From assembly GCF_963678975.1 (NCBI RefSeq), contig NC_089274.1:17129633-17193632 (forward strand): a stretch of DNA of 64,000 nt. The letters are read 5' to 3'. The notes beneath the pieces were generated by a model that was not told where the DNA came from, did not search any database, and saw only the letters and a list, made by a program, of their open reading frames with translations. Of the stretch, positions 1 to 53,459 are shown piece after piece; the first letter of the stretch is position 1; each line of letters begins with the position of its first letter. This stretch comes from Dysidea avara (lineage: Eukaryota; Porifera; Demospongiae; Dictyoceratida; Dysideidae). A program made the translations under genes and the position numbers.

Positions 1-3000
1 ACCAGGAGCACATCAAGTCTGGACTTGATATTGATATGCTTCTGGTTAGATTGCCACAAAAGCAAAAAAACAAAAAACATCATATGATTGAGCACATAGA
101 CCACACCTCTAAACAATCTATTTACTTGATCACAATGACCACACCCCTTATTATTATTCTAGTTGTATTTATAATGCTAGCACAGTGAAAATATGAAATA
201 GTGACCACATCACTGAGGCTGACTCAAGATACTCTAATACAGCAGTTACCCTAACAGAACAGTCACATGCGTATAGCTGTATGCTATAACAAAAAAGCTA
301 AACAAACTAGTATATTAAGAGGACTCATGTAAGTAGTCTCCCTTCCATCCAGACAAAAAACAAAAAACAGTGGGCTTGGCAACATTATATAACCCATGTA
401 GCATTACAGACCAGTGACAAAAAGGAAATGGTGAATACATAGCTCACACATTCCTATTGTTTTGTGGGCAATATCTGAGATTCATTATCCACCTCATGGT
501 ATTAAATGATATTCACAGGATACAGTGTGATTATACTGGCAAGAGTATTCGGAATTGATTATCTGTCGTATTAGTGATGTTCTTCCAGTGCATTGATCAC
601 CACAGAAAAGCACTTTGATCTCCTGGTTCTGTAAGGCATCATAGCTTGGCTGGGGAACAAGTTGATCATGCTGCACACTAGGATCAGTAAGTGCCAGTAA
701 CTCAGTCTTGTGTGATGCTCCACTACCACTAGCAAACACTGACTCAGAGGTGAGATCAGTCACCTGCACTGGACCAGTCAGGCCTAGGGGCGTCTCTTCA
801 TTTGGTACTTGGCTGGGAACTTCACTAGGAACAAAAAAATGACTCCGGCCAGCCACGTATATTGGCGCCATAGGTAATTGGCCTGTAACGAAAATTTTGG
901 TCCGGGGCAAAAATCGGTCCGGCCGGACCATTTTCAGTCGACCAAATTTAGTCCGCCCGGACCATCTTTAGCATCCGAAATTGGTCCGACCTGACCAAAA
1001 TTGGTCCGGTCCAAACCTAGTTGGCCACATGCACTCCTGACCACTCGGACCAATATTGGTCGACCAAAATGGGTCCGGGTGGACCACTAACGCATGCAGC
1101 CAATGATGCATGCATAGCTATAAGTTGTTTGTGACGGAACACTGTAGCCGACTTAGCTATAGCTATTCTCATTTATCAATCTCGAATAATGAGCATTGTA
1201 GGCATTATCACTGCATGGATTTGTGCTTAAAAGGTTATCCAACAAGGGCACGGATCATTGCATGCACGGGATCAGCTAGCCGCATTGGAGGTGCTTAAGA
1301 TCGAGATACTCTAATAGAGCAGTCACCTATATACCCTTGTGAACATAATAAGGCCGGACAAAGTTGATTAATTGATTCGCATCCCCGCCCACATCCCTTT
1401 TTACCCCATGCACCGCCTCTTATTTCATTATTGCTGTTATCAATCACGTGTACACGCGTATTTTGATGTTAGGAAGGCTGGTTATCATTTTACAGCACGG
1501 CAAATGTCACTTGCACCTCAGAAACGGTGGTAGCTAATAAGTAAGTAATAGTTCTTAAAAGGTTTTATAGTTAACCTTTATAACAGACTTGCCTGATTTG
1601 GAGTATTTTCTTTACTAATGAACAATGAAAAATGACCTCCCGCCTGCATGGAAATCTGAATTTTTGTGGATGAGAAACTAGTAATCAAGTTTCCTGGCCT
1701 AATGTATTTTGTAATCTCAGTATACAGGCTGATCATGAGTTAACACCAGTGGTTAAAACAAATTGTAATACACCTGCTATGTAACACCTGTGCACATACT
1801 GCACATTCCTCTCTGTCATATGTGATATGTAGGAGATGATAGTTTAGGTTTACTCCATTGAATAACTAAATGTGAACTATCATCTCCTACTAATGACATG
1901 CCCCACAGGAAGAAACATCATGCACCTTATAAAGGTTATAGCTAAAATATTCTCAGTATGTTTTTTACTACTTAGCCAACTTAAAATTTTGAGGCATGCA
2001 GTCGCATTATTCCACAGCCTTAGGGTGAGTTGTTGCAGACATAAAAGTAAAATCGACTCAATCCTAAAGCAGACCCCATATCTTCCTTCAAGAAGTTCTC
2101 TGCCTGGTAATAGTTAATATACTGCCCATGATCATAGATAAATTCATGTATACTGCTACCATCTACTGTAAGGTTATAGCCAGCTAGCATTGGAATCTGA
2201 TGCAATGTAGGGATTTAGTTCATATTGATATAACAAAAGAGTGTTCATGGTCAGTAATATTCATTATTAAATAATGCATGTCTGAGTGGCTGCAAGGCCA
2301 TGCATGGTGGGTGGCTAGCCACCTCATCCACCCCTCTGGATCAGTCCCTGAAATAATATGTGTATCTGTTTATGACAATGCGTGCATGCATGGATATTCC
2401 CAGATTAATAAAAAACTGACCAAGGGTCAGAATTAACAAATTAAATTCTGAGCTATATAATTATGCAGAAGTTGAAGATAAGACATGTTTTAATGGTAGA
2501 TTTTATATATTGTCTACCATCCTCAAGTATAAGTGATCAAGCATAGGCTGGTGATTTCCATCATGTTGCTATAGTTGTTTGTCATAATCAACACAAACAG
2601 GCTGGATGAAAGATTCAACCAAACACTGCAGAGCTGATGATGCTTGTGAAGTTTATTGAACGTTTTTAAAAAAAAAATTTAATTGGTAATTTATATCAAT
2701 AATACAAGAAAAGGTTTTCACATTCAAACATGGTTGAACATATAAAAACGTACTTGGGGAGAATATTTTGTTACCTGTGTTTTTGTATGCAACATTGACC
2801 ACCATGCATGAATCCAGCATTGACCATGCATTTGAGTTGATGTATGCCGGAAGAAAACCTCTACTTCCCAGCTAGCTATTGACATGGAGAAGAATACAGG
2901 ACTTTTATCATACCACACTGCTTTAAATTAAAACAGCATTAATTTTGCGACTGTGTTCATCGCTGCATATATAGATCATGGAATTTAGTTTCTAGCTACT

Positions 3001-3478
3001 ACATGCATTTTCCGTAAATCACAGAACTCGGGAAATTAAACTACGCTACTCATTTATATAGTTTCCAGGCTAAGTCGGCTGCAGTGATCCATCACAATAT
3101 ACTTAGCACGGACCGACCTGTCTACACAATGCCGGGTACACCCGCGGACCAACCAAAATTGGTCCAAGTGGTCAGGGGGTGCATGTGGCCAACAAAGTTT
3201 GGGCCGGACCAATTTTAGTCAGGCCGGACCAATTTTGGATGCCAAAAATGGTCCGGCCGGACTAAACTTGGTCAACCAAATTTGGTCCGGCCGGACCAGT
3301 TTTGGTATCCAAAATCGGTCCGGCCGGACCGATTTTACCCGGACCGATATTTCCGTGACAGGCCATGTACAAAATCATCTAAGTTGTTACCTGTTTAAAA
3401 AGTTGAGTTGGGGTCAGGGTGACAATAGTCAATACCACGGTGTCAATACTTACAACTCGCCGGCCAGTAGTTCGCCAT
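1..3478 (-). CDS. Rab/Ras-like small GTPase, partial (3' part beyond window)
   Basis: Three exons are supported on the minus strand. Exon 1 is 3478-3454 and starts MANYWPAS, with donor GTAAGT at 3453-3448. Exon 2 is 882-524, after an AG at 884-883. Exon 3 is 41-1, after an AG at 43-42, and runs off the window. Exon 2 carries a G1/P-loop, GDQCTGRTS, where the Walker lysine of GKS/T is replaced by arginine. Upstream of it is a segment GRSHFFVPS that matches GRSTFFVPN in the next gene (6254-9232), so the two are paralogues. The G3-G5 motifs lie outside the window. Exon 1 is inferred from phase agreement (its last base plus GC forms a Cys codon) and is less certain than exon 2. An alternative start is an in-frame ATG at 931, inside a transposon arm. 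The arginine in the P-loop suggests poor nucleotide binding, which is an inference. Confidence 0.6.
881..3366. mobile_element. Foldback-type element with long inverted ends rich in GGTCCGGCCGGACC
   Basis: The two ends, about 881-1090 and 3137-3366, are inverted copies of each other. Both begin GGCCTGTNACG and both carry repeated GGTCC/GGACC units, including the self-complementary GGTCCGGCCGGACC. The 2 kb interior has no convincing transposase ORF. The element sits in intron 1 of the left GTPase gene. No clean target-site duplication was found, so the class is open. Confidence 0.65.
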
Positions 3479-3843
3479 TAACATATTTGGCGCTGGCCAG
3501 TGCGCAGATTACTCGTCACTTGGATGTCTTGTCTTTTAACTTTAAACACCTCTAATTCAGCCCTAGCGCTGCATCACTGTGTAGACGTAGACTCGAAAAG
3601 TAGCTGTTATACATTCCAAGCTACGTCAGCATTAATAAAATTATGATAGTGGCGTGCACGTGTTCTCTAGTCTCGTACCGAGGTTGAGTTTGTGGTCTCG
3701 GTTCAGTGATGAGGCGTTTAGTGAAAGTATCTTCCTGGCAAGGATAGCCTGACCAACTATGGTTCTACCATAGTTCTAATGACACAGTAGGCATATTATC
3801 TATACTCATAGAGTTTATCGGTGGTCTGGTGGTGTTCATCAAC

Positions 3844-4254
3844 TAGTCTCGCGTAGCCAGACCCTTTTCTTTCTTTTGTGTAGGGGCGGGGAAAGAAAAG
3901 GGTCTAGTATAGCAATCCCGAGATTGTAGGGATTCTACTTCGCAGCTTCCGGATTGTTGATTGGCACCATAGCTACTACACCCCCTGTGTAGTATCTATG
4001 TTGGCACGAATGACGTGATTTGCTAATAATTTATTTGGATCATTTGCATCGTGTTACCATAGCTACTGCTGAAATGTCTATGGCAACAGGACGCAAATGC
4101 AGCAGATCACGTCATTTGAACAATCCGGAAGCTGCGCAGTAGGATCCTCACAATCTCGGGATAGCACAACAACGATGCTATACTATGTTCACCTGACCCT
4201 TTTCTTTCCCGCCCCCACACAAAAGAAAGAAAAAGGTCTTGCTACAAGAGACTA
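3844..4254. mobile_element. Non-autonomous DNA transposon, Mutator-like (411 bp)
   Basis: The inverted arms are about 140 bp, beginning TAGTCTCGCGTAGCCAGACC on the left and TAGTCTCTTGTAGCAAGACC on the right (reverse complement). Each arm holds a smaller hairpin around AGACCCTTTTCTTTC. The flanks TTCATCAAC (3835-3843) and TTAATCAAC (4255-4263) look like a 9-bp target duplication with one change. Long arms with a 9-bp duplication are typical of Mutator-like elements. The termini resemble those of the element at 51273-52943. Confidence 0.75.
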
Positions 4255-5388
4255 TTAATCAACTGTGACTCTGTGTGTGTGAATTCTGTTGCCCAGCAAA
4301 TTTTGAAAGACAGGCTGGGCTCATTGCCACACATCTGGCAATGTCATCCACAAAGGAAGAAAATGGCAAGGAAAATGGTTTGGTCCACTACTACCATGTG
4401 GGGCTTAACACATCATCGGCAGTGAATGGCCCTTAACAGTCCAGCAATCCTGTCTCCCAAGATCACCCCACACTACCTATGTGATGTGTACATATAGCAT
4501 GCCAACACTACATATCAATGTAGCCTGTTTATTCTATTGTACTAACAGATGGTGGTAGCTCTATACCAAGTACTGTATTGTTCGAGGTATTGTTAACATA
4601 AATTGCATGATCACATGATACCCATACATGATTATAGTCTGACATGCAGAATTGCAATTTACCTCTAGATAAAATGTTTGTTTAGGTCAGAACTGCAAAT
4701 GTTTCACTGATACCAAGAGCCCATAGGTGCCACTGTCAAGATGCAAATTCATTCCTTGCAGTATTTATGGGCTACTGGTGTGGTACCAACATTAAATTTG
4801 ACTCAATAAACTAATTTCCAACGATTCACCAGCCCGCATCATCAGTACAGGGAAGTTTGCTAATGTAGATAATTTTTAAGGTGCAGAACAAATTAGATAA
4901 GCAATGATTGTGATAAAGATTCACAGTTTCCTACCAAATTCAATGTGTTTTGATAAGATTTATGCCTCAAATCACTATAGCAAATTTATGTACGGTTACG
5001 TAATCCATCATGTAAGACAATAAGAGAAATGTAAGCAAATATGGTTTTTGCAATCATAATTATGTTAATAGATTTAACCATGTGAAGGCTACATTGTATT
5101 TGCAAAAAAAATATGACAATGCAACAGTTTTATTCTATAGCTAAAAGCAATTTTTGTTTAGCTACTGATAGACTACTCTGTGAACAGCAAGACAATTGTA
5201 GAACATATACACCTTTCATCTCATAGCTTTTTAAAGGTCATTGTACATCCACACATACATATGAATCATCAGTAAATTCCTTAACAGTGAGCTTAATTTG
5301 AATAACTTGCTGCATACTGCAACACACAGAAATCCTTTAATTTAAATTTCACCACATGATTGCTTATCTAACTAACTACAGATGAAAT

Positions 5389-5745
5389 CAGGGCCGCCCA
5401 GAGAAATTAAGGGGCCCAGGGCAAAGAGTTAAAGTGGGGCCCTTGACCCAAGTTGTAAGGTGAAGACCAAAAAAAAAAAAAAAAAAAAAAAAGGTCACAA
5501 CCTGCTGGCAATGACAATAACTACCCATCACCAACCATATCTCCTTATCTATAAGTTTGCTACACTGCTCCTCTGAAGAATACTGTGACTGCTCTATTAG
5601 AGTATTTAGATCTGACTGCTCTATTAGAGTATATAGATCTTTTAAACAGGTATTCAGGGGGCCCTTCATGGGGCCTCCTGGGGCCCCTTTCAGGCTGGGG
5701 CCCGGGGCAAAATGCCCCAGTTGCCCCCCCCTGTGGGCGGCCCTG
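5389..5745. mobile_element. hAT-type MITE (357 bp) with 8-bp target duplication
   Basis: The ends are CAGGGCCGCCCA and its inverse TGGGCGGCCCTG (with small differences), flanked by perfect GATGAAAT copies at 5381-5388 and 5746-5753. An 8-bp duplication and CAG...CTG ends fit the hAT superfamily. The interior includes an A-run at about 5468-5492 and two copies of the dispersed motif GACTGCTCTATTAGAGTA (5585-5604, 5613-5632). No coding capacity is seen. Confidence 0.85.
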
Positions 5746-6253
5746 GATGAAATACAGAGCTTTTCCCAGCAAAACAAAGTAGACTGTCAATTTGCTACCA
5801 ACATCAAAGTCAATTGGTTAATTATATACATTCTTTTTACCACATCAAAAGAAATTTGAGCAAAGTAGAAGCACTGCTCTTTAGAAATATCTTACTGTGT
5901 ACTACATCATTGATGACTAGACCATTGTCCACTTGATAGCTATATAGCTTCAGAGGTACAGTGACAATCCATACTGACAATTTCACTACATTCATTGTTA
6001 CGTATGCAACACAACCCAGCTATACAACACCACAACGACATGTAAGTTTTAAAAGTTCTATAGGTCTGTGTGTACTAACTTCCATGCATGGCAGTTACTA
6101 TTGAAAATCTTCAGTACAGAACACCAGACTTTGAAAGCTGATCCAAACTGCATACGAGGTAAAAGAAATGCCACTGGCTACACTGTTGGACTAGGTGCAA
6201 TCAGTGACTCAGATGCATACTATAGCTCCAGTGGGATGGTACTGTATACCTCA

Positions 6254-9699: not shown

Positions 9700-11173
9700 A
9701 TGGCGTTTGGTCGTTACAGAGGAACGAGCTCATTTGACAGCAGTCCAACAGATGCTGGTAGCACGATATTAAAGCTGACCAATAAGATACTCGCTGACCT
9801 GCAAGTGGACAACAGCAGTTCGCAGCAGGCAAAAGAGGCGAGAGTGGTCAGAAATGTCCGTAGTTACAGCGACCCATCCGGAGGAGTAGATGCAAGAGAA
9901 TCTCTCCCAGCATACTACGACACTAGCACGATTCTCCAGCCCGCTGTAAGACTTAACTTAGATTAATTCTGAAGCCAACTATCTGCTTTTTCTTCCACAG
10001 AGAAACCCTAACATGCCTTACTTAGCACCAGTTAACACCTCAAACGAACTCGAAGATTTTGACCCGCTGATTTCACGCTCCCAGCCTGCAGTAGTAGCAC
10101 CTGAAGATTCACATTTAAATTCACAGCTGGTTGAGTCAGAGGTAAAGTATGTGTTGCTAGAGGAATTTTTTGTTTGTTGTTATTGTTATGTTATTATCTA
10201 CTTTACCAGTTAGGCACTGTTAACATACATTTTGTGTGCTTTTAGCCACCAGCAACACAAGTCACTTCAGAACTGAGCAAATACATTTGCAGTGAAACTA
10301 GTAAATCTGATAATGATGATGACTTTTGGGCATTCTTTGATGGTGAACGACATTCAGAAGTCACTTCAACTGACATTGGCACTACTGACAAACAGGAGTC
10401 TCTGCCCAATGATGCTGTAACCTCACCAAATGACTCTGAAAGCTCATTAACACAATCAAATGATACAAAAGATGTCAGTACACAATCAAATGATACAAAA
10501 GATGACAGTACTCAGGTTAAATGTGTAGAAAGTAGTGAAGACACAAGTTTAAAACTCACCCTGTCCACAAACACTGAAGACTTTAGTGATGATGACGATG
10601 ATGAACAAATAGTAAATACAGGTTCTCGTCTGATGGCAACACAGCCAAAGTCAAAACCGTTTGTAGCAAGATTTATTAAACTGTCACCATTTGGATCAAT
10701 CAATCCCGAACTACCCAAAGTCAAGATAATTATTGTTGGGGATGCCAATACAGGCAAGAGTTGTTTTCTTCACAAATACATCCATGGCTGTTTTGATTAC
10801 CAGTCACAACCAACAGTTAGTTATTATGTGGTGGTGATGTGTGGTAGAGACTTGTCATAGGTGGGGGTGGACATTTGTAGTCTTCCACTGGAGGATAAGA
10901 AGACAGGTAAACAATTTGTTGCTCAACTATGGGATACTCAAGGTAGGTAACATGGTTGAGTAGATAATATTGTTGATGTTCTGTGTAGGTCAGGAGCGAT
11001 TCAACTCACTTACTACAGTAAGTATGTGCACGCGCGTGTGTGTGTGCATGGCTGCATGTATATGTTTGTTTGTAATGTGTGTGCACGTCTGTCTGTAATC
11101 TGTGTGCATGTACATGTGTATGCATATGCACACGTGTGTTGTGTAGGTGTGCGTGCGTACGTACGTACGTGCA

Positions 11174-11230
<57 letters not shown>

Positions 11231-14200
11231 CAGCATATAGCCAAGTGGCTAGAGCATTGGTCTGGTAATTGAAAGGTTTCCGGTTCAATGCTCGGATACA
11301 TCAAATTGATGTTGTTGTTTCCTTGAGCAAGAAACTTTACTCACATTGTTCCAGTCTGTTTAATGGGGACCTGGTGGCCTGGTGTCAAGTGGGGAAGCAG
11401 CCCACTTAGCTGTAACATCAATGGGTACCTGGTATTAACTGGGGAAGCAAATGCCAACTGTCCATGTCTCACACAGCAGGTGAAGGTCCAGATGGGACTT
11501 TGGGTGCCCACACCTTTACCTGTGATGCTGGTTCACTGGATAGGCGTGACCGTGTTAGCACCCAGTTGAAGGCTTTGTGCTTTGCTTCATGTGTGTGTGT
11601 GTGTGTGTTGTGTAGTGTAGTGTGTGTATAGTATGTGTGGATTTGCGGCCTACCAATTCATCTATTGCTGGTCACATCATTCCATTGGTAATATGAGACC
11701 ACAAAGACTTATTGTCTACATCGCTACATTGCTACATTGTCTGTGTTTGAATGTCCATTATTTCAATAATGAATATGATGCTAAATATGGCACAGCTATT
11801 CATACATATGGTATGAAATAGTTTCCCCAAAATAGTACCCTGGTGGGTGTTGTGTGTGTTGTAGTCTATAACTAAGAGTTGTGCCATGGCTGCGTATGTA
11901 TGCTACTTTATATAGTACATTTATGTAATAAAGAGACCTACTGTACACGGCTAGTTTCACTGGTGTTGTATTAGGTATTTGTTTGAAACCTTTTCAGGCA
12001 TGGGTCTGTTGTTTCATATGACTCTGGTAATCTAAACTACAATTTACTGAATAGGACTGTCATGTGGCTAGACAGAACACAGTAGGTGTTACCATAATTA
12101 GCTATTTGATAGTTGGCTTTATCAATTTGTCTGAAGATAAATTTAATCACATATTTTTACAGACCTACTTTAGAGGGTCCCATGGAGCCATCATTGTGTA
12201 TGACATTACCAACTACAAGTCACTTAATAATGTCTATAACTGGAAGAGTGAAGTAGAGAAGGCAACATCCATCAACCCCTTCACTCATATCCCAACCGTT
12301 CTGGTGGGAAATAAGGTACCTCAATATGTGATTGTTGGTATTGATATGGATTAATGTAGTTCAAAAGTATGTTCCCTCAGGAAGAATCAGTAAATATAGA
12401 CTGTATTCCAAATGACGTCACGAAATAAAATGGCTGCAGCTATTTAATTGGGGTATTCTAACATTTTCGAGTGAGAGTTCCAATGGGGCTTAATAAGATA
12501 TTCAATTCTGGAAGAAGATATTGACCTAAAACAAACAGGTACAGTTATAAGGGTATAAAATCTATTCTTTAATGCCGGGTTAGAAATTTTCAGCTGGTTT
12601 TACAAAGTTTAGAAGAAAAAGTATTGTTTCTTTGCTGTAATAACCAAACCTGGTAATTTCACCTCAATGTCTAGTTTGTTAGCCTCTATATCAATCTTTG
12701 AAATCTAGACCGCCATTGGTGATAATACTCGAAAATATAAGAATCCCCCCAAGTAGAAAATTCATGTGACGTCATTTGAAATATGGTCTATTGCCCAAAA
12801 TTGGTAGCATGCTGGATATCCTAGGTGTTGTCAGTTATTTCCAATTGATTGTCAACTTAGGCAGTATATTATAGAGTAATGTGCTTTGCATTTCCCTTTG
12901 CTTTCTATTTCCTTTACACACCCTAAAAGCACAGATTATTTTGCTATCTTGCAGTTCTGGGGTAAGCTGATTGATGTAGTGGTATTGATTACAGCATGAC
13001 TTTGTGTTTCCTTTTTTGGTGAAATACTGAGCAACAATTTTTAACTATTGGTAGGCCTAGTTTTGTCAACAATTGTGGAACAAATATTGACAAAATGTGT
13101 TTATTGCCAAGAATGGTAAATCTTTACCCAAGAGGCTCATCATGACAATGACCAAATATATAATAGTGGAGTTTACTTGCATCACTAACTTTCCGCTCCA
13201 ACATTGAACGCCATTTCCTTTATTGGTAAATATGTAATCAACTATAGTCTTTTTCATAATCACCTGAGCAGCAGGCCACCAGTTGTTTATCAGTTTGACA
13301 GAGATAGTGACAGTCATTTCTTTGATGCTCATACATGTACATGGTAGGCTTTTATTCTTGGCTGAAATTCCAGGCACAAATCCTTTATGGTGCTTATATG
13401 GACTCCTAGAAACACATAATGATTTTTCACATACCATGGTACTACATATAAATAAATATCAGTGCACCATTTTGGTGACAATTGTAAGATGCTGGTAAGA
13501 AATATTTGGTATTTACAGTGTTGGGAGTAATGCGTTACATAAGTAACGCGTTACGTACTAATATTACTTTTGCGGTAACGAAGTAATATAACAAAATATG
13601 CTGTCAAAAACAGGTAATATAACTCAAGTTATGTACTTGCAAATGTAACATGTTACCTAAGTAATGAAGTTACTGTAACGAACCTAATATTACATAATAT
13701 TATTACTTTAAGTAACGAAGTTACTAATCTCGTTAGTGATCCACTGAGTAATTCCTAGCCATTACAATAGAAGTAATGAAGCCTACTGAATGAAGCTTAT
13801 TCACCAGCTTCTTGCTTATAACCAAGATTTGCACATTGTCCAACGACGCAATCATGTCACGTGATAAAGTGGTAGTTTCACACGTGACAGCTTAAGGCTG
13901 TGGACACAAAGTAATATAATATATCTACTTTATTATATGGGTAATATGTAACTGTAACTAAATAGTTCAGTTGTAAATAATATGTAACGAGTTTAAAAAG
14001 TAACTGTCCCAACACTGGGTATTTATTTGTAGCTCACTGAAACTGTTCCATATCATTTGCTGAGTAAGTGTAAGAGGAGAAGGTAGAATTAACAGAACGG
14101 AACCGGAATGAAACCAATTAGGATGCGCGCCAACTTTAAAGTTGCTTTTCAACAACTTGTACAAGATTATCAGCCAATGTACAATAGCTATTCTAATGAT

Positions 14201-17200
14201 AATCTCCTACAGGAAAGTTGTCTACATGTAGTTTCTATTTAACACCCACTGCATGAATACTTATTACGAATCTATGCCTCAGCTTATGCTGCAAAATACT
14301 ACCTTCAAGTCTCCTAATGTACAATTCTGCACAATAAACATAGCACTCTGTGCACAAACTACAGCCATTAAGCTAAAATAATGGCAAGTTCAGAAAACTG
14401 GCCTGATGCACATGCACCATACAACACAAAAATATTACAGTATTTTACCTGCTAGTACAACTGGCTAAGAAATAATTCTACCCCGTCATTGGCCTTCAAC
14501 GGAAGGATTCACCATTCGGCATAAAGAGTTTCAAATGTGGCTGCAATCAAGTCCAGGGTAAGTTTTGCCTAATTTCAATGATTGGGGAAAGTGTAGAAAC
14601 TTATCAAAATTGATTTTAAAGTTGGCACGCGTTCTAATTGGTTCTGTTCCAGTTCTGTTCCATTCTGGCTTTTATGACTTCCCACGTAAGAGTGGTTTAT
14701 GATGCTATACACTAAAATGTGTGATATTTTTACAGGGTACAATATGTATTTCATTGCTATGGAAACATGGATGACCAATTGCATAATTATATTAGTAGAG
14801 TAGGAAGGATAATATCATAGCTGGTTTGTCAGTGTATTCGTTCTCTTTCCATATATTTTCACAGGTATATAAACAGATGGGCTAGCTGTTCTATTGTATC
14901 CGATTCGCCATATATGTGACCAGATTTTACAAAACCAATCCAAATTGCTCATCTGGCAAAATCATAGCTATACTGTTGTACTACTAGTTTTGACCCTCAG
15001 TACTATACTTAAGCTACTCGAAGCTGGTTTTGACAGATGTCTTTTCTGGATGGTGTGGAGAGCTCGAATGGTGGTTTCTGGCCTAATGTAGGGCCTCAGC
15101 TGGCTTGGCAATAATCAGTGGTTTACTGGTGGATGTCCTGACAATGTTGATCAGACGTTTTTTTTTCTGTTGATTTTGCTACTAATCAGCCACTAAGAAG
15201 CCAGCACAACCCTGTAATCTCATGTCTGGACTCCAATTGTGGTCTGCCTCTATTTTGAAGTCTCTCTCTTGCCCATCCCACCACCACCCCCCCACCCCTT
15301 TCATGATACTACTTCGCTCATCCAACTGCCAGTGTTGGGGCAATTGCTTGTTAAAAGTAACTTGTTACATATTACATATTTGCAACTAAACTATTCAGTT
15401 ACAGTTACATATTACCCATAAAATAAATTAACTTTAATATTATATTACTTTGTGTCCACAATCTTAAGCTGTCACGTGTGAAACTACCACCTTTTTATGT
15501 GACATGATTGTACTGCTGTACAATGTGCAAATCTTGGTTATTAGTAAGAAGCTGGTGATAAGTCTTCATTCAGTAGGCTTCATTACTTCATTGTGGCTAG
15601 TCAGTGGATAACTAATAAGATTTATTAGTAACTTTGTTACTTAGGTTACATGCGTTACATTTGTAAGTAAAGTAACTTGAGTTATGTTACCACTTTTTAT
15701 AGCATATTTCGTTATATTAGTTTGTTACCACGAAATTAATAATTATTACACAATACGTTACATAAGTAATGCGTTACCCCCAACACTGCCAACTGCTCAG
15801 ATTTTCTATCTTATTCCATCTTATTTGGCGGGAACTCTACAAGTGCTGGAAGTGGTCTGATGCATCTTTTGTGTAAATTTCGTATGCGTATTTGCTATTC
15901 TTGGCAAGTTATGCTGACTTGAATTCTTTAAAATCGTTTATCTCAAAGCTTCTAATGTGCTATTTGGAATGTTTTTCCAAAATCCTGTCACATAATTATA
16001 TGCTGTTGTATTTTAGTGCCTGCAACTATTGCTGTCTGCGATTCTGTTGTGGTCAAAGAACAACATTTTAGTGGTAGTGAAGCATGTAGAATTAGTCTAG
16101 GACTTCTCTCTCTTTCTGTAATCCTATAGCAAAGTATAATTAAAATTTTTGTAGTTCTGCAAATATTTCATAGCAATACTATATGGGTTATAGGGGTTTC
16201 AGCACTTTTAGCAATTCATACGAAATGTGTAGTGACGCATGCGTGTGATTTATCTGGTACAACAATGGCGGTGGATACCTACATTGTGTCTCAGGCTGCT
16301 GTACATGTTGGCAAATCTCTATAATATACTTTAAAAGGTATGGTAGGATAGGTTATTTCACTTTGAAAACAGCCAAACAAATCAAACATGCATGCACAAC
16401 CACACTACGCATGTCACACGAATTTGCAAGAAGTGCTGAAACCCCTGTAGTTATTTGGGAAAATGTAAATTGCCATAAATGGCTAATATACGTCTGAAGT
16501 ACTTGGAGTACGTATTAGTGCTGAGCAGTTTTGATATTTCATAGACCGTACGGCCAGTGTTGGGCAAGTTACTTTGTAAATGTAACTAGTTACATATTAC
16601 ATATTACTTGCAACTGAACTATTTAGTTACAGTTACATATTACCCATAAAGTAAAGTAACTGTAATAATATTATATATTATATTACTTTGTGTCCACAGC
16701 CTTAAGCTGTCACGTGTGAAACTACCACCTTATCACGTGACATGATTGCGCTGTTGGACAATATGCAAATTTTGGTTATAAGTAAGATGCTGGTGAATAA
16801 GCTTCATTCAGTAGGCCTTCGTTACTTCGCTGTGGCTAGGCATTACTCAGAGGATAACTAACGAGATTAGTAACTTCGTTACTTGTAGTAATAATATTAC
16901 GTAATATTAGACTCGTTACAGTAACTATATTACTTAGGTAACGCGTTACATTTGTAAGTAAAGTAGCTTGCGTTATATTACCTGTTTTTATAGCGTATTT
17001 CGTTATATTACTTTGTTACCACAAAAGTAATAATATTACGTAACGCGTTACATAAGTAGCGCGTTACTCCCAACACTGCGTACGGCACTGTGAACTTGAT
17101 ATTGCGGTATGACTAAATTATTGGCATACCTTAGTTTTAGACCTGCAGTACTAGATTTAGACACAGTAAAAAATTCAGAATTGTGTCGAAAGCCAATTGT

Positions 17201-17837: not shown

Positions 17838-38961
<21,124 letters not shown>

Positions 38962-45032: not shown

Positions 45033-45084
<52 letters not shown>

Positions 45085-46378
45085 ACTTATACCGTATGCA
45101 AGGAAATTTTGACACAAGTAAAATTTGACGAATTTACACTTCAGCAGATATGATAAAATAAATGTTGATGTAGATAAAACTTGCATCTTTACAGATGCTT
45201 AAGGGCATTTGATGAATTTAAATTTGACGAATTAAATCGATTTGTAAAAATTTTCCTTGTGTATGGTAGGTAACTAGTCTGGCATCAAGACAGCCCACTT
45301 ATGGTCTCTGTAGCTGTCTGTAGACTTACATGGAGACACACCCACTTGTCAATTGTTGATAATGTCTGTTACAATACTTATTTCTTGCAGATGACCCTTT
45401 CTGTAGCAATAAGGCTCACCTTAAGTTAACCCTTAATATTGATAAAATGACTTGTACGCAAGTCTTAAGACTGTTTTGCAGCTGCAACTGGTCTCATCCA
45501 TACAAACTACTGTTTTAGTTGTTGAGGGTATTGTGCCAAAAATTAACCCTTGGGTTTTGAATGAACAATATAATGTCTAGTATGATCATAGCTTCTAACA
45601 ATTAAATCTGTGCAGTGCCATAAATGGCAAGATTGAAGCTTGCCTTCTATTAAACTTAAATCTGTGTAATATAAGTGAGTAAATCACAAAGGGGAGTGAA
45701 ACATAGAGGGTAGTAGCCGGGATGAAAAGTTTCCAAAAATGGACTTAAGTATGTTAATAAGTTCTCGGCCACCAAGTGAACACCACAAGGTACTCAGTAT
45801 CACATGGGTATTTCTGGTTACTGCAGTGGAACTTTTTCATTATGAACACTGCAGTACCATTATTCTTAGTAAATAACGGTTGACTTTAAGATATTGAACT
45901 ATATATATAATATTAAGAATGGTAAGTATGTCTTGTATCTGAGTAGTGAATGTGTTGGTGGTATAGTGAATTCTCAAATTGTTGCTCTTTATATATCCCT
46001 AGAGAGCAACAATTTGAGAATTCACCATACCACCAACACATTCACTACTCAGATACAAGACATACTTACCATTCTTGACATCCACTGGGAAGAGTCCGGC
46101 TCTGGTAGCTCCTTCTTTGTCATAGCAACATACTCCTTCAGTGCTTGACAACCATCCCTAGCAACACAACCAAACAACAACACAATTAGATGGGTCATGT
46201 AGCAAGAGATCACCCAATAATACTGAATGACTGAATAGTGTTTAACTATGAGCGTAGACATCATCACAATAATATCATGAAACATTAGTCCAATAATTCT
46301 TCTGTGAAATACAATACATATGACTTGAGACTTGATAAGCTTACAGCATACTTGGACGTGGATACGATGGACCTTTGT
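44479..46378 (-). CDS. Unassigned split gene, three exon candidates
   Basis: Exon candidates are 46378-46345, 46157-46070 and 44540-44479. The first two join in phase: KGPSYPRPSML is followed by DGCQALKEYVAMTKKELPEP and a Trp-containing end, with AG and GTAAGY signals on both sides. The third (PCCVTKDSDNRLLALVARIK) is bounded by ATACAG and GTACAC, but its phase needs a missing exon in between. The peptide looks like real coding sequence (polar, non-repetitive, good splice sites) but I do not recognise the family. It could also be a relic, given the duplicated pieces around it (42325-42770 and 45915-46076). Confidence 0.4.
45033..45084. repeat. (CTG)n trinucleotide tract, about 17 units
   Basis: Uninterrupted TGC/CTG repeat between GGGATCGAG and ACTTATACC. 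The same GGATTGAATGCTGCTG context appears about 50 bp upstream, which suggests where the expansion began. Not in a supported exon. Confidence 0.95.
45915..46076. repeat. Near-perfect inverted repeat, 74-bp arms, over a splice donor
   Basis: The arms 45915-45988 and 46003-46076 differ at one position and are separated by 14 nt. The right arm holds the last six bases and the GTAAGT donor of the exon at 46157-46070 (minus). The left arm repeats this exon-intron boundary in inverse orientation. Confidence 0.95.
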
Positions 46379-46914
46379 CTGTGTAGTACAGTGCAGATTC
46401 ACTAACTATGCACCCATCTCAGTATCACATTAATGAGTCTCAAGTCCAAAGAAACCCTATTGTGAGCAGAAACAGCACTGGAACACCTGTGTAACACTTA
46501 GGCACTTGAGGCTGCACAGAACTATGGTAACACGCATAAGGACTGTCATAGTTTCATGTAAATAGAGGCTGTGGAACCCTACATCCAAGATTAATTAGGC
46601 ATTTGCTTCCCCTCATACCACACACATGCATACACTACAGTGTACTACATATGATACACACACCTTTCACTGCCTGTCCTGGGATCAACTCTTAATCCCA
46701 GCCCCCATCCCCCATGAGACACATCACGTCCACCTAGCCAAGGAACGCTGAGTAACCTAGATTTACAAGCCTTTTCATTCTGGTTAGGTGGACCTCATGG
46801 CGGGAGGTTGGGCTACGGACAATGGCAGGTATCTGAGCTTCTTCAGCCTGTTCCAAATCAGTATGTTGTGTTTGCAATGTATGAAGTATATGCATGGGGC
46901 CCCGCACACACTCA

Positions 46915-47162
46915 CACACACACACACAAAAAGCAAAGTGAAAAGCCTTAAGCTGCCACTAATGCAGTCACACCTACCCAGTCAACAAGCACTGGGACAC
47001 TTGTGCACTACTCAAGTGTTATGAGTCATCACTGGCAAATCTTCTTGGGGCAGGACTAGTAACCTGTATGGGGCTGTATCATGTCTCATGGGTGAAGGTG
47101 TAGGTACTAAAAGCCCTACCTGAACCTTCACCCATTGTGTAAGACATGGACTGTTGGCATTT
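46915..47162 (-). mobile_element. SINE fragment, same family as 11228-11590
   Basis: The reverse complement shares the block around GAAGGTTCAGGTAGGG, CACCTTCACCCATGAGAC and the terminal AAGGCTTTTCACTTTGCTT with the SINE body. The tRNA-like head is absent. Confidence 0.7.
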
Positions 47163-47270
47163 GTATACACACATACATACATACATACATACATACGTAC
47201 GTATGTTGTGTACATGTGTATGTACAGTATGTACATATGTACATACATACATACACGCATACATACATAA
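47160..47270. repeat. (ACAT)n / (GTAC) microsatellite
   Basis: Tetranucleotide CATA/TACA repeats with a TACGTACGTA centre, following the truncated SINE. Confidence 0.9.
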
Positions 47271-47545
47271 TTAAAGTTACAGTGAAACCTGTGAACGCCT
47301 TGGGACCAATCAATAGTGTCCTGATTATCAAGGTTTGTTTGCATGTTAAGGAATACTTTGGACCATTTCCAAGTGTCCAGATTATGCAGGTGTCCTTGTT
47401 TTCAAGTGTCCTGATTAACAGGTCTCTCTCTCACACACACAGACACATGCACACACACAGACACAGACACGCACATGCACACAAAGCTGAGAGTATACAT
47501 AATATATGCATATGCAATATATCAATGATAGTTGCATGCTTCTAG

Positions 47546-47706
47546 GAACACCTGGCTTTTTGACTGATAAACATCCATGGTTACAAAGTTTTGGAGGAGC
47601 AAGACGTTACAAAACCTTTAAAGGTTCTGAAGCTTCTGGTTTTGTCCCAGATACTACTTTATGCCTTCAGAACATGTTAGTTGTTGGTTTAACCAATGAC
47701 ATAAAG
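47546..47706 (+). CDS. Unassigned exon candidate
   Basis: Open across its length between TTCTAG and GTGCTT. It encodes TPGFLTDKHPWLQSFGG followed by RRYKTFKGSEASGFVPDT and an end in VVGLTNDIK. The peptide is non-repetitive and looks coding, but no partner exons and no family were recognised. It could be a fragment of a domesticated or dead transposon gene. Confidence 0.3.
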
Positions 47707-48639
47707 GTGCTTATATGAGCATGCACGGTAATGGTTGCTATGGCTCTAGTATTATTATCAGATGCATTGTCAACACAACTGCATAAAAAGCCATTGAAAA
47801 ATAAATGATTTGAGTAGCAATGTGGGGTCTACAAGTTCCCTTAGTAGCATTGCTACACACTTTCAGACTTTTAATTCTTCAAATTCCCATACACTATCAT
47901 ACATTGTAAACATCACTGATGATGGGTAATATGGTTACCATGGTTATATGTACATCTTACATCACTATGTCTGATGTATAAAGCTAACCGTTCAACTATA
48001 TTACAAGTCACCACATTGCCAAATGCTTGTCATATCATTACTCATGGTGGGACATTATCAATGATTCAATCTTTATGTATCAATATGCAGGATTACATAA
48101 ATATGTAAAAACTGGCGAGTTTTGAAAAACCTGTCTACCTGTATGTACATGAATAATAGTAAAATGGCTAACACTTTTGTCTAACCACACACTGTAGTAG
48201 GTTAACTGGTCGTGAGGGTTATCCCATACACTTGTCCCACCATTGCAGCACACACTACAATAAATCTTGTAAACACGGAACATATAAAAGTAATGATACC
48301 TACAAAATATACACGCAGCACATTCTCAGGTATGAATCACATGCCCTCCAAGAAATTCTTGTGTATTCTGAGAATGACAGCCCATCCAGGAAATTTTGTA
48401 TTTTAGACATTTTAGATTGATTCTAGTGCACCTGAGAATGACAAGTGTATTTTAGAGTCTCTTAGATTGGTTCTAGTGCATTCTCAGGTTACTACTGTTC
48501 CTGATGCACTTTCATTTAAACTATTGCCTAAAATTTAAAGGGACCAAGGATTTACCAAGGATTTGTCAATAGGTGAGGGTTCTCCTTCCCCTAAATGAAT
48601 GAGTGTCCCCCTTCCCCTAAATGAAACCCTGACATGGAC
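47707..48639. other. Intergenic stretch, short repeats only
   Basis: Contains three copies of a CATTCTCAG/CTGAGAATG word near 48320-48490 and direct repeats of TTTTAGA-TCT-TTAGATTG-TTCTAGTGCA. No supported gene. Confidence 0.4.
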
Positions 48640-48860
48640 CTTCACCCGCTATGCAAGATACCAGGACACACAAACACACACACGCACAAAGCAAACAAGC
48701 CAAAGCCTTTAGCATGGTCATGCATCCCTTCCCAGTGAACCAGCACTGGGACACTAATTTGATACTCAGGTGCTACAAGGAGGCTGTCCCATGACTCACA
48801 GGTGAAGGTGTGGATACCCAAAGTCCCACCTGAATCTCACCCTTATTGTGAGTCAGTATT
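48640..48860 (-). mobile_element. SINE fragment, same family as 11228-11590
   Basis: The reverse complement carries GTGAGATTCAGGTGGGACTT, CACACCTTCACCTGTGAGTC and AGTGCTGGTTCACTGGGAAG, then a CA-rich tail. The body only. Confidence 0.65.
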
Positions 48861-48934
48861 TTCTTAAAATGGTAAAACAATCTACTCAGAACCAACAAGA
48901 AGGCTACCAAAAACAAGCAAACATAGCAGAGAGT

Positions 48935-49213
48935 TAGAATCTTGACATCGCAGCCCCCGGTGAGTTGATCCCAAGCAACTTGTCATTTAGTCAAACTTAG
49001 TCAAGTGCCTAAGGAGCCACCTAGCCTGGGATCTGGATAGAGGTGGTGGAAGTACTACCCAGACTGGTGATGCAACTGTCTTACCTGCACAGCTCTAAAC
49101 GCAGCAAGAACTTCGCTGTGTGGCTCCTTAGGCACTTGACTAAATTACATGTTGCTTGGGATCAAGTCACCAGCTAGTCTGTATTCAACAGTGTTGTGAT
49201 GTCAAGATTCTGA
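48935..49213. mobile_element. MITE with interrupted inverted arms
   Basis: The ends AGAATCTTGACATC and GATGTCAAGATTCT, the block AAGCAACTTG/TGTTGCTTGGGATCAAG and a perfect GTGGCTCCTTAGGCACTTGA against TCAAGTGCCTAAGGAGCCAC are mirrored about 49080. Confidence 0.75.
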
Positions 49214-49539
49214 CCCCCTGTTATATATATACATGTGTTTAGTAACCGCTTGTTGATCCTGAGTAGTAATATATGCATCAAATGTCCGACTGTTTTTTCC
49301 ACAGCATACTTTAATTTAGATTTATAATAAACGTTCAATGGAGATAAGATTTCTCAAGCAAATGCAGAGTTCAATATGATCCATGTGTGAGTTTACTTTG
49401 TGTTTATTTACTGAGTATTTGCTCAGAAGACAAATTAGTTTTTAATTGTCTTTGAGTAGGTCTGTTAGATTAAACCTCAAATATGTATGTCACCATGTAA
49501 CCTTGGAAACTACATGAATGTTTGCATTCTGGAAGCTCT

Positions 49540-49600
49540 AACACACACACACACACACACACGCGCGCGTGCGCACGCAAACACGCACGCACGCACACAT
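49540..49600. repeat. (CA)n/(GCAC)n microsatellite
   Basis: A CA run passing into CGCGCG and ACGCACGC units. Confidence 0.9.
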
Positions 49601-49944
49601 TATACTACACCCATACAGATCCATATGTAATAGGATAAATAATACTATTTGTGTACACGTGTTTATGTATCTGGTGATCTGCACGTGAGCTCCCTCTCTC
49701 ACATACATATACGCTATCACAACCAATGCAATGTACAATTGGTACGATCTTTACATCAATAGTATAGGGACAATTATTCGATGCAATTTTTGTCTCAGCT
49801 GTGCATTCAAGAAGTCTAGCCGGACCATATGAGATTGCAGCTGTTGGTCTGCCTTAATGTTACAGGTCCCCCACCCAATAATCAGAGACAAGGATATACA
49901 TAGGAAAAAACCCATGGCATATTCACATTAGAAGTAACTAAATG

Positions 49945-50215
49945 GGCAAAAGCAAAGCAAAGCCTTTGGCTGCCGCTAGCACAGTCATGTCTACCAACTG
50001 AACCAGCACTGGGACACTTGTGTGTTACTCAGGTACTATGAGTTAATACCAGCAAATCATCCTGGGGAAAACTAGTGAACCCCAGGAGGCTGTACCATGT
50101 GTCACATGTGAAGGTGTGGATACATAAAGTGCCATCTGGACCTCCACCCATTGTGTGAGATGCAGACAGTCGACATTTGCTTCCCCAGTTACCCACGGTC
50201 TACCCAGGTAAATGA
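49945..50215 (-). mobile_element. SINE fragment, same family as 11228-11590
   Basis: The reverse complement carries AACTGGGGAAGCAAATGTCG, CTCACACAATGGGTGGAGGT, CACACCTTCACATGTGACAC and AAAGGCTTTGCTTTGCTTTT in the order of the plus-strand SINE. Confidence 0.7.
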
Positions 50216-50913
50216 GCACACATACGTAGGATATAGCAAAATAGCTAGTTCAAAGGTTTTGATACTTATAGAAAAGTCTCCCAGCTTATTTTGACTCAAG
50301 ATCACTTGCTGCAGTTTCTGCACACTTAGCATGGTGTAACAGCTTGCTGTTTCTGTTCCTATTACATTGCCTATTGCTACTAATTGCTATATGCCAGTAT
50401 CGCTGCAACAAGTATTATAGAGTCAATCACTAGGGGCTTAATGAGTATCATCACCAGGGATAACTGCACTTTAGATTAGACAGACTGAAGTGCAGTAACA
50501 AAGGCTGAGGCTCTGATTGTTTTTGGCTATGCCACTCAAAAGCAGTAGTAGCAGCAAGCAAGTAGCAGTGACAAAAAATCTTGTTTTAAGCCATTTCCTA
50601 GTTGTTCAAGAGGTAGTCACTACCCTTCAACAGCTCATAAGTTCTTGTCACTGCCAATGGCAGAACCAGCGACCATCAAATCAAACAATGGGAAGGTTAA
50701 ATCAAGGGATCAAAAGGAGAGATAATCAAGTACCTTAAAAACCAGATGATTTTCTTCCCAAAAACCATTTGTGTCTGAAGCAATTTACCCCAACAAATCA
50801 CTCGTCTTCTAACCACTTGTTACATCATTTTTGATAGTCATGACTGTCAAGCAATAAAACCCCATTGTCAGAAATTTAGGTCAATTAAAAAAAAAGATTG
50901 TGGTTACAGATGG

Positions 50914-51198
50914 TTCTATAGCAAGGGGGTGACACACAGGCACTCACTGTAGGTAGATCTACAACCACGGTCAAAGTCTAAGTTAAAGGTCAAGGCCACC
51001 AAATTTGTGCCAAGTCAACGGTCAAAATTTCCAACCCACAATCGAAAAGTTGTGAAATATCATCGCTAGGTCACCGGTCAAAGATTGAAAAAGGCTCTTA
51101 GTCACAGTCAAAGTGAAATTTCGGTGGGTCAAGACTTTGACTGCGGTCACAGATCTACCTACAGTGAGTGCCTGTGTATCACCCCTTGTATAGCTATT
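50914..51198. mobile_element. MITE with about 70-bp inverted arms
   Basis: CACAGGCACTCACTGTAGGT and ACCTACAGTGAGTGCCTGTG are perfect inverse copies near the two ends. The outer CTATAGCAAGGGGGTGA / TCACCCCTTGTATAG part is also mirrored. Confidence 0.8.
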
Positions 51199-51701
51199 CT
51201 TTGCTGTTGATAATATCACACTGTCCACCATCTACTGCAAGGGGGACCCACTAAGGTAACCATGGGGAGAACTAGTCTGGCGCGGCCGCCCCTTCGCAAA
51301 CAGGAAGGGTCTGGTGACTCTAGCATTGTGTACTTGTGTGAATGGAATGTAATTAGCGGGAGAGACGTGGTTTTCTGTAATTAGATTGCATCATTATTGT
51401 TAGTCATTGCGATATTCAGTCGAGTCATGTCCAGGGAACGCTAAAAAAAACTTACCGCTTCTAACTTACAAGATTACTTAACGTACTTTTTAAATAAGAC
51501 ATCCTTATTCCTTCACGATAAGTTGTTCTAATTGGACAAGACTCGAGATAAGCAAAACAGAAGCCATAATTTGTCGCTTATCAAGTTAGCCAAAACGGAT
51601 ATCTACATCACTAAATGAGATGCCAAGCGATTTGATTGGCCGTACCAGTTTTCGGTAAGTTCGCACAAATACACAATGCTACAGTCCCCAGACCCTTCCT
51701 G

Positions 51702-52910
51702 ATTATGATTATTATTATTACTGAGCAGTCAGCCCTGCTGGTGTGCTCAGATTTGCCCGAATACATGTAACACAATTACAATAATGATTGTAGTCCAGTT
51801 CTAAAAATGTCAGCATCTGCAACTTCAACATGATCTACTGGTAAGGAGTTCCAATCATTAATTGTTCTTGAAAAATAACTATTTTGGTGTGCTGTGGTAG
51901 ATACATGTGGTAAGATGTAGTGCAGTGGATGGTACTGTCTTGTGGATCGTGATGTTGGTAGGTAGTATGGAGGAATTGTAAGTGATATTTGTTGGTAAAA
52001 ATTTTTGTGTAAAGTTTGTAGTCGAGATAATTTGCGGCGAGTCTGGAGAGTTGGCCATGAAAGCTGATTTAACATTGAGGTGACAGAACTAAGTCTACCA
52101 TAATCATTCATTACCCAGCGTGCTGCTCTTCGTTGTATTTTTTCTAGCTCTACAATATCTCCAGTTTGGTGAGGGTCCCAGACGTCAGATGCATATTCTA
52201 GTTGTGGCCTGACCATTGTTAGATAAGCAGATTCTTTAACTTGTTCTGAACATTTGTTTAAGTTACGTTTCAGGAATTTAAGTGTTTTAGATACTTTAGT
52301 AACAATACTAGAAATGTGTGGTGACCAAGATAGTGATGTATTAAGAATTACTCCCAAGTAAGTATGTTGATCAGATAGATTTAAGATGTGATTATTGAGG
52401 GTATAGACGTGATTGAATGGTGTCAAGGATCTTGTACAACGTATGACAGTACATTTACTAACATTGAATCTAAGTTGCCAGGCGTTTGCCCATTCTGATA
52501 ACCTATTCAGGTCTTCTTGAAGCATGTTGGCGTCTTCTGCACTGTTAATAACTCTGTAAAGTAGACAATCATCAGCAAACAAGTGGAGTGGTGAGTTGAT
52601 ATCTTTAGTAATGTCATTAATGTACAACAGAAACATTAATGGTCCGAGCACTGTGCCTTGTGGTACTCCAGAAAGCACCGGTACTGGACTTGAGGATTCG
52701 CTATCTAACACAACACACTGGGAGCGGTGAGTAAGCCAAGTTTGGATCCAATTGTAACTATTACCATTAATTCCATAGAATCTTAATTTGGTTAGTAGTC
52801 GCTGGTGTGGTACTGTGTCAAATGCTTTGGAAAAGTCTAATAGGATGATGTCTATTTGTTTTTGGTGGTCTAAAGCAAAGGAGATATCTTCAGATAGTGT
52901 GATGAGTTGG
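51702..52910 (-). mobile_element. 5'-truncated non-LTR retrotransposon (LINE)
   Basis: The body is on the minus strand with an ATT-repeat 3' tail at about 51705-51720 and a TCCTG target duplication (51697-51701 and 52911-52915). The 5' end is cut off within the reverse transcriptase, as usual for LINE copies. Confidence 0.88.
51776..52910 (-). CDS. Reverse transcriptase, C-terminal part, of a jockey/CR1-type LINE
   Basis: A single open frame of about 378 codons without stops. It copies element RNA into DNA at a nicked target. Motifs in order: LLDFSKAFDTVPH, LSGVPQGTVLGPLMF, LFADDCLLY (the catalytic double Asp), WQLRFNVSKC, YLGVILN, then the conserved C-terminal stretch ending ISRTINDWNSLP-like (YFSRTINDWNSLPVDHV). 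These are the standard RT palm motifs of jockey/CR1/L2-type elements. The endonuclease and the N-terminal RT part are missing, so it cannot move by itself. The intact frame suggests a recent insertion. Confidence 0.9.
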
Positions 52911-53459
52911 TCCTGTTTGCGAAGGGATGGCCGCGCCAGACTAGGGGAGAACGTGGTCCAAGTATGGTGTCGTTGTATATTGTTCCATGTAGCAGACTGA
53001 TTTTAACAAAAAAGCAGCGAGAATCATTGATAACAGTGCTAATTTCCAGGCAAAATAGAATCTATGTTCCACCCCCCCCACCACCACCCATTCCCAAGTC
53101 ATAAACCGTCCAATTCTTCTCTAACCCAATCATACACGATAAAATACATCAACCCAGTATTAAAGAAGTGTGTGTAGATACAATTTATGTACCTCAAACA
53201 ACCCGTTCATTCCCCAGATTCCTGGCCTCGCGCATTCCCTGTCCTTCTATTTATAAAACCGTTCCTATTTCTATAGGATTTGTGATTCCAGACTAAATTA
53301 CCTAAAATATGTTAGCTAAGATCGAGATACTCTAATAGAGCAGTCACTCTAATAAAGTATTCAGTGTGTAGCGAGCTATGTAAGGATTTTTATGTAGTTT
53401 ATCAGCTAGAAATGGTAGCTGGTGAGGTGGAAAGCTCGGCTTGTCAGTTGGTTGCGACC

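Follow-up and report, generated by a model that had tools for sequence, protein, structure and literature searches.

A short module shared by unlike families of small transposons in the sponge Dysidea avara, and its possible role as a protein-binding site

Several MITE families in the genome of the sponge Dysidea avara, with differing ends and target sites, have in common a module of 20–30 bp. On balance we favour the view that it is a cis-acting module, putatively a protein-binding site, which has been spread mainly by transposition of the MITEs that carry it. The core of the module, ~20 bp, is ATACTCTAATANARCAGTCAC, and the common 30-bp form has AAGATCGAGATA in front.

The window, i.e., the whole 64-kb stretch of DNA that was analysed, has 17 kept copies of CTCTAATAGAGCAGTCAC and its near relatives at 10 loci, with starts at 232, 249, 1309, 5585, 5612, 18369, 23698, 25479, 27267, 27302, 35130, 35160, 35177, 35194, 36783, 36814 and 53330. 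Three are exact, 1309 (+), 5585 (−) and 53330 (+). A preliminary description had reported recurrence at about ten loci in both orientations, which understated the repeat; the copies that it listed are real, with true starts that differ by 0–6 bp from those given. At ≤3 mismatches there are 14 window matches; in 100 dinucleotide shuffles the mean was 0.08 and no shuffle gave more than 1. Relaxation to ≤5 mismatches gives 24, while five Markov controls yield 0, 5, 4, 6 and 6, so that the weakest of the 24 are at noise level. PWM scores of the 17 copies are 19.7–35.6 versus a best null of 11.2 in 4 shuffles, the PWM having been built from the same 17 copies, which favours their own scores. When all 18-mers of the window were scanned, CTCTAATAGAGCAGTCAC was the most dispersed complex one, with 10 separated loci; the next had 5, a figure not exceeded in one shuffled window. 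These controls, together with the genome counts below, rule out chance and low complexity as the source of the repeat.

What precedes the unit? GATCGAGATA, said earlier to do so often, is before it in exact form at 3 loci (1309, 36783 and 53330), the copies at 5585/5612 having a variant of it, and the fuller unit, AAGATCGAGATA followed by CTCTAATAGAGCAGTCAC, has 2,728 exact copies in the genome. The palindrome CTCTA-A-TAGAG within the unit was considered as a functional feature and rejected, as it is not conserved among the 17 window copies: its inner G position is C in 4 of them and T in 1, and the last G is A in 10. A search of the window for RNA genes gave no Rfam match at gathering score and no tRNA.

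The surroundings of the window copies are diverse. Two units on the + strand, 232–249 and 249–266, form a 17-bp tandem (232–266) after CTGACTCAAGATA and share flanks with 35130–35224, where there are four − strand units (35130–35211), three of them, as had been claimed, in perfect 17-bp tandem at 35160–35211. An exact 30-bp unit at 1296–1326 (+) includes the copy at 1309 and looks solo in the window, yet it is part of a repeat; of the 40 genome matches listed for it, 34 end at window position 1331, beside the unit. A solo copy there was accordingly rejected, and a segmental duplication shared with locus L042 was dropped in favour of membership of the repeat. At 5389–5745 (−) there is a hAT-like MITE with a 12/12 TIR, CAGGGCCGCCCA, and the perfect 8-bp TSD GATGAAAT on both sides; it holds two units, 5585–5602 and 5612–5629, spaced 27 bp. 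The other MITE of the preliminary description, at 36568–36878 (+), has the inverted ends CAGGGGCGTACGG / CAGGGGCGTACAC and units at 36783–36800 and 36814–36831, with no perfect 8-bp TSD found at its edges. A left-truncated hAT-like MITE copy at 53317–53557 (+), with right end CAGCGGCGGAGC at 53557, holds an exact 30-bp unit at 53318–53347, and complete relatives of it elsewhere in the genome have perfect 8-bp TSDs. All five CAG[GC]G[GC]CG words of the window are ends of three unit-holding elements.

The window also contains the REV3 gene with introns. Beside one of its exons, and probably intronic, is a solo unit with 2 mismatches at 18369–18386 (+), around which 251 bp are single copy in the genome. 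Between REV3 exons are two diverged units, both on the + strand, one with 4 mismatches at 23698–23715, detected by PWM and the ≤5-mismatch search, and one with 3 mismatches at 25479–25496, detected by PWM and mismatch search. A two-unit cassette at 27264–27319 (+) matches elsewhere over this ~55 bp alone, in 10 other places. As 9 of these 10 are pogo-like elements, the copy at 27267 was not retained as a free cassette, although it and locus L110 themselves fall outside that explanation.

In the 550.8 Mb genome there are 5,613 + 5,766 = 11,379 exact copies of CTCTAATAGAGCAGTCAC on the two strands, the reversed pattern as control giving 0 + 0. At ≤3 mismatches the count is 72,022 + 72,529 = 144,551, about one per 3.8 kb, against 93 + 93 = 186 in the control, counts that are not random. 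Among 69 distinct exact copies the only conservation beyond the searched 18-mer is in the columns from about −11 to −1, and on the right it drops at once to background. The exact 17-mer is present in 7 stretches of genome contigs and 2 of viral contigs in other sequence collections, all of them bacterial or viral records and by estimate the number that chance gives for collections of those sizes; none of these matches has the GATCGAGATACTC extension. In a search of the main text of papers, eight had the 11-bp palindrome, in one orientation, and none had any of the longer unit strings.

Is there one longer parent element? The ten window loci have no longer consensus in common, clear flanks being shared only by the pairs 232/35194 and 5585/53330, and for these loci and for a sample of 102 copies flank comparisons led to rejection of a single parent transposon. 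Yet larger elements are involved. Masked flanks are common to at least one other sampled copy in 81/102, and 21/102 have no flank partner, though as the sample is about 0.8% of exact copies such singletons may belong to lower-copy families. An interval with inverted ends and a perfect 8-bp duplication encloses 35/102, compared with 7/102 in a control with right halves swapped. The proposal that the unit spreads independently of larger elements consequently lacks support for many copies; it may still hold for a minority, solo units such as that at 18369 being in existence. Because single linkage at low stringency joins 47/102 of the sampled copies, part of the carrier families are related.

The hAT-like carriers, which are the element at 5389–5745 and families F1, F2 and F4, are 300–450 bp in length with YAGGG-like TIRs and are devoid of coding capacity. 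F1 has 11 copies with perfect 8-bp TSDs, counted from TSDs with ≤2 mismatches only, and its ends, CATAGGCGGCGGA / CAGCGGCGGA, agree with each other at only 10–11 of 14 positions. For F2, with ends CAGGGCCGCCC, there are three copies with a perfect TSD and one with one mismatch. F4, with ends TAGGCACCGGCC, has perfect TSDs in L039, L057, L093, L010 and L037 and at least 40 full-length copies in the genome. The diversity of carrier ends is illustrated by CATAGGCGG.., CAGGGCCGCCC and TAGGCACCGG, and by CAGTAGGACCTC for those that are pogo-like. The unit is common to F1, F2, F3, F4 and F9, whose ends differ, and so, as the preliminary description held, is shared by otherwise unlike elements. F1, F2 and F3 also have in common ~200 bp on the right side of the unit; what F4 and the pogo-like MITEs share with them is the units alone. 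The hAT-like MITEs do not have the unit at each end, where it lies varies by family, and four copies of one repeat have 1, 2, 3 and 1 units. When the second unit was compared with the rest of its element, its conservation was clearly higher in F2F3 (3/132 blocks as conserved), in weak excess in F4 (46/373 and 65/373) and without excess in F1 (208/255).

Carriers of another kind are pogo/Tigger-like MITEs, which have TA target sites and the unit just inside the terminal repeat. CCTCGATTATC followed within 6–30 bp by TGACTGTTCTATTAGAG has 75 exact matches in the genome and 0 in the control, and 63 of the 75 span 39–41 bp, a fixed register. Loci L111–L119 have CAGT..ACCTC terminal repeats, and of L109–L119 only L113 and L118 have a complete terminal pair; L113:354–569 is a 216-bp MITE with TA on both sides, a TIR of 21/24 and 2 units. 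L123, of 1,895 bp, is a related autonomous element, TA-flanked with a TIR of 23/24 and a DDE_1 (PF03184) transposase; its TIR is similar, not equal, to that of the MITEs, and it lacks the unit.

Do the transposase loci themselves have the unit? At ≤4 mismatches it is in 0/8 hAT-type loci examined (150 scored of 1,875 candidates) and in 0/4 pogo-type loci examined (150 scored of 835), and the closest match in a transposase locus, a single one with 5 mismatches, is inside the ORF of L123. The hAT dimer domain is abundant in the genome, and the 8 loci examined have other TIRs or none that was found; among the 4 pogo-type loci element ends were recognised in L123 only. That the unit is a hAT transposase binding site was rejected on the 0/8, although true partners may lie outside these 8, and that it is a pogo transposase site was rejected on the 0/4, the 5-mismatch match in the L123 ORF excepted; most of the 12 loci have other TIRs and may be the wrong partners for these MITEs.

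The course of events that we favour is as follows. Several non-autonomous DNA transposon families carry the module, usually as 1–4 direct copies 17–35 bp apart, and MITE transposition would be the main driver of copy number; among members of one family tandem slippage would alter unit number, and old MITEs, as they decay, would leave units in unique DNA. Since unlike ends and unlike target-site rules (8 bp versus TA) go with a shared 20–30 bp and little else, this wide sharing among small transposons suggests a putative protein-binding site, one that may aid transposon persistence or copying. A first candidate for the binder would be a DNA-binding protein of the pogo/CENP-B type or a host derivative of such a protein, because the unit has a fixed place just inside pogo/Tigger-like terminal repeats. 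Passage of the module between families could have been by nested insertion, recombination or gene conversion. Counting against this view are the 0/8 and 0/4 among transposase loci examined, the variable place of the unit in hAT-like MITEs, the uneven conservation of second units and the 21/102 sampled copies that lack a flank partner.

That the unit is instead the surviving inner part of one ancient transposon lineage, with the carrier families its diverged descendants, seems unlikely to us. The ~200 bp that F1–F3 share and the 47/102 linked copies fit with it, as does the conserved inner region with differing ends in coral CMITEs (PMC2872659), but F4 and the pogo-like MITEs share nothing but units with F1–F3, target sites are 8 bp in one kind and TA in the other, and the flanks of the 69 exact copies reach background at once. 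A mobile unit, a micro-element of 20–55 bp inserting alone into unique DNA and transposons alike, is a more doubtful proposition. The cassettes at 27267 and L110 do share only their ~55 bp, with sharp edges and no common flanks over ~3 kb, and the 21 sampled copies without a flank partner and the unit at 18369 in single-copy DNA point the same way. However, of the 10 cassette matches the remaining 9 are alike in their flanks, most with pogo-like ends, so that the solo two may be relatives that have decayed; reading by eye showed no duplication at unit edges, and many of the 21, in so small a sample, may be from lower-copy families.

It is comparably improbable, in our estimation, that the unit is a host regulatory or chromatin motif, bound by a candidate host protein and dispersed or hijacked by transposons, though its density, its occurrence in introns as well as in transposons of several kinds, and precedents in placozoans (PMC12221973) and Drosophila (PMC4384637) are in keeping with that. 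Genome seeding by a minisatellite or satellite, for which the 17-bp tandems at 35160–35211 and 232–266 speak, is largely refuted and very improbable: the whole 550.8 Mb has 11,379 exact monomers but only 15 tandem dimers, in a count of perfect dimers of one variant.

The closest precedent is that of the Acropora CMITEs, where MITE groups with different TIRs share an inner region more conserved than their ends, a role of that region in transposition is suspected and arrays can form (PMC2872659). The likeness is an inner module more constant than the ends among families. CMITEs are ~100-bp elements with a ~75-bp inner region, TTAA/piggyBac features and ~1,600 copies (PMC2872659), unlike the 20–30 bp shared part here, which is often repeated and has ~145,000 near copies; TTAA target sites and piggyBac ends are not encountered here, where target sites are 8-bp and TA. 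The subterminal transposase-binding repeats of the hAT element Herves are likewise short direct repeats inside transposon ends, described as 8-bp sites found at each end of an autonomous element (PMC3143072); the units here exceed that length, are often central and were in none of the 8 hAT loci examined. Multiplication of a motif through a genome by transposons is also known for dosage-compensation sites borne by ISX in Drosophila (PMC4384637) and for a loop-anchor motif inside Mutator TIRs of placozoans (PMC12221973), each with one element family and with binder or function studied, in contrast to several element kinds and a putative function here.

Classification of non-autonomous transposons usually goes by the ends. 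In the families described here, what varies least from one to another is an inner module of 20–30 bp, present in elements with unlike ends and unlike target-site rules. Should the module be a binding site, it would offer a handle on what inner MITE sequences do, a question open since the coral CMITEs, and on whether a host factor is common to different transposons. A more ambitious notion, on which we would place little weight, is that the ~145,000 putative sites in hAT-like and pogo-like transposons constitute a network read by a single transposase-derived host protein; were it true, different superfamilies would have converged on, or exchanged, one address tag, a shared anchor that serves in replication, silencing or the looping of chromatin. 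There is also a caution, in that short dispersed motifs from promoter or intron searches in this genome may be transposon-derived.

The CENP-B box of Tigger/pogo terminal repeats is similarly a short pogo-end site that is also present outside transposons and is bound by a transposase-derived host protein (PMC7325037). Unlike it, the unit has carriers that are mostly hAT-like. The core of the CENP-B box is TTCGNNNNANNCGGG, which the unit, on reading, lacks; the box is 17 bp long, and the tandem period of the unit here is also 17 bp.

The motif, a recurrent core of about 20 bp searched as an 18-mer and often present as a 30-bp form with extra bases in front, is real, very abundant, borne by transposons and common to different kinds of them. 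Its recurrence at some ten loci in the window, as proposed in the preliminary description, was borne out at the sites named there, with start offsets of 0–6 bp, and exceeds chance by a wide margin: the window has 14 matches with ≤3 mismatches where 0.08 were expected. Seventeen copies at 10 loci were retained there; five more matches with 5 mismatches, and an incomplete copy at 53347, do not rise clearly above the noise. No other complex 18-mer in the window is as dispersed, the runner-up being at 5 loci. When the 550.8-Mb assembly (108 contigs), in which the window is C3:17129633–17193632, was searched, with the same pattern reversed as control, the exact 18-mer was found 11,379 times (control 0), the 30-mer AAGATCGAGATACTCTAATAGAGCAGTCAC 2,728 times (control 0) and forms with ≤3 mismatches 144,551 times (control 186). 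The last corresponds to about one unit per 3.8 kb genome-wide, a mean of 0.26 per kb; the 144 kb of flanking DNA fetched, with the targeted copies set aside, has a similar 0.29 per kb. Only 15 perfect dimers in 17-bp tandem occur in the genome.

What are the limits of the unit? In 69 distinct exact copies from the fetched loci L010–L077, the only conserved sequence outside the 18-mer is the 11 or so bases preceding it, AGATCGAGATA, with conservation of 0.59–0.96 per column, which falls to 0.43 directly behind the 18-mer; conservation of the 18-mer itself is not evidence, because it was the search key. Among the 17 window copies core positions 8 and 10 are variable. Carriers have one to four direct copies, and of neighbouring pairs ≤80 bp apart in the fetched loci 106 have the same orientation and 11 the opposite, though such pairs are not independent, many being family copies, and part of the 11 is the palindromic core overlapping itself. 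Two direct units and one inverted unit are present in both L120 and L121, which belong to the same repeat and match at 93% over 463 bp; at L120:394–487 and in the matching L121 stretch these are 30-bp forms arranged almost as a palindrome.

Many carriers are of hAT type. The window element at 5389–5745 has terminal inverted repeats (TIRs) matching at 12/12 and a perfect 8-bp target-site duplication (TSD), and 53317–53557 is a left-truncated member of the MITE family F1, for which 11 copies among the matches listed have perfect 8-bp TSDs. These were also found for F2 (ends CAGGGCCGCCC) and F4 (ends TAGGCACCGGCC), the latter with at least 40 full-length copies in the genome. A perfect 8-bp duplication with TIRs of at least 9/14 surrounds the unit in 35 of 102 copies (92 exact copies and the 10 window loci) as against 7 of 102 with right halves swapped between loci, though several of the 35 intervals appear by eye to be chance (e.g., L014, L069, L090) and two elements, L058 and L096, enter the count a second time. 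F1, F2 and F3 have some 200 bp beyond the unit in common; between these three and F4 and F9 the units are the sole shared sequence. The element at 36568–36878 has inverted ends, and a perfect TSD was not found for it; it has 63 bp in common with 5389–5745, namely two units, and 28 bp with 53317–53557. Also in the window, and lacking the unit, are three copies of another hAT-like element (13516–14017, 15330–15788 and 16555–17078; ends CAGTGTTGGG, perfect 8-bp TSDs) and an element at 33890–34505 (ends TAGAGTTGCACCGATA, perfect 8-bp TSD AATATATC). A non-LTR-type reverse transcriptase ORF of 408 aa (RVT_1; 51776–53002, minus strand) adjoins the truncated F1 MITE.

A second kind of carrier is of pogo type. 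For the 241 bp around the unit at 27267 there are ten other genome matches, each of about 51–60 bp and confined to a two-unit cassette, and nine of them (L111–L119) have flanks common to one another. Several of the nine have TA followed by CAGTAGGACCTC(A/G)ATTATC ends with a reversed unit just inside; L113 is a complete 216-bp element with TA on both sides, TIRs of 21/24 and two units. A pattern in which the unit comes after the pogo end word has 75 exact genome matches (control 0), and in 63 of these the span is 39–41 bp, with several different linkers. The assignment to pogo is based on the TA site, the likeness of the ends to those of L123, a DDE_1 element with a TA target site and TIRs of 23/24, and a resemblance to Tigger ends. 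A pogo/Tigger-like end (TACAGTTGAACCTCTCTAATCCGACACC) is at window 27364, about 45 bp after the 27264–27319 cassette and facing away from it; a partner for it was not found in the window.

Other contexts are varied. The unit at 1309 is within a repeat: of the 40 matches listed for window 1061–1420, 34 stop at 1331 and 6, one being the window itself, continue past it, and L042 is a 97% copy of this region with 653 additional bases at 1331. A longer repeat is represented by four copies, L024, L038, L060 and L077, which have 1, 2, 3 and 1 units respectively, and the DNA around the unit at 18369 is single copy in the genome. With unit-like sequence masked, single linkage, which can merge families, sorts the flanks of the 102 copies into 28 groups: 21 singletons and 7 larger ones (47, 14, 10, 3, 3, 2 and 2 members). 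The exact copies in this sample are 92 of 11,379, all situated in the first 4.4 Mb of a single contig. When 79 copies were clustered by unmasked 90-bp alignments, 34 groups resulted. Several units are situated between exons of a REV3-like gene for the DNA polymerase zeta catalytic subunit (17718–38961, plus strand; REV3_N, POL3_N, DNA_pol_B, zf-C4pol).

A module common to elements with different ends is most naturally read as a putative protein-binding site. Could the protein be a transposase? The results speak against it: no unit was found in eight hAT-type loci, and in four of pogo type there was one 5-mismatch match only, inside an ORF; in the 40.9 kb of these loci, chosen by long ORFs and not by matching ends, there are 0 units at ≤3 mismatches where about 11 are expected from the genome mean. 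How well second units are conserved relative to the remainder of the element varies: they stand out in F2F3 (3 of 132 blocks do as well or better), weakly in F4 (46 and 65 of 373) and not in F1 (208 of 255), so that any constraint on the unit would be no more than a feature of divergence within families. Coral CMITEs likewise have an inner region common to families with different ends (PMC2872659), subterminal sites are shown for the hAT element Herves (PMC3143072), Tigger ends contain the CENP-B box (PMC7325037), Porifera are among the groups with reported Tigger elements (PMC7386202) and a loop motif is located in Mutator ends of placozoans (PMC12221973). Longer forms of the motif were not found in the literature searched.

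Elsewhere in the window, 910–1060 and 3152–3336 are inverted and tandem repeats of GGTCCGGCCGGACC type in mutually reversed orientation. Two ORFs, 494–967 (minus strand) and 10246–10860 (plus strand), have weak to moderate Ras/Roc GTPase matches and are perhaps members of one gene family. Two complex tandem-repeat fields, whose units measure about 100 bp and 24–316 bp, are present at 54528–55772 and 58487–59273.
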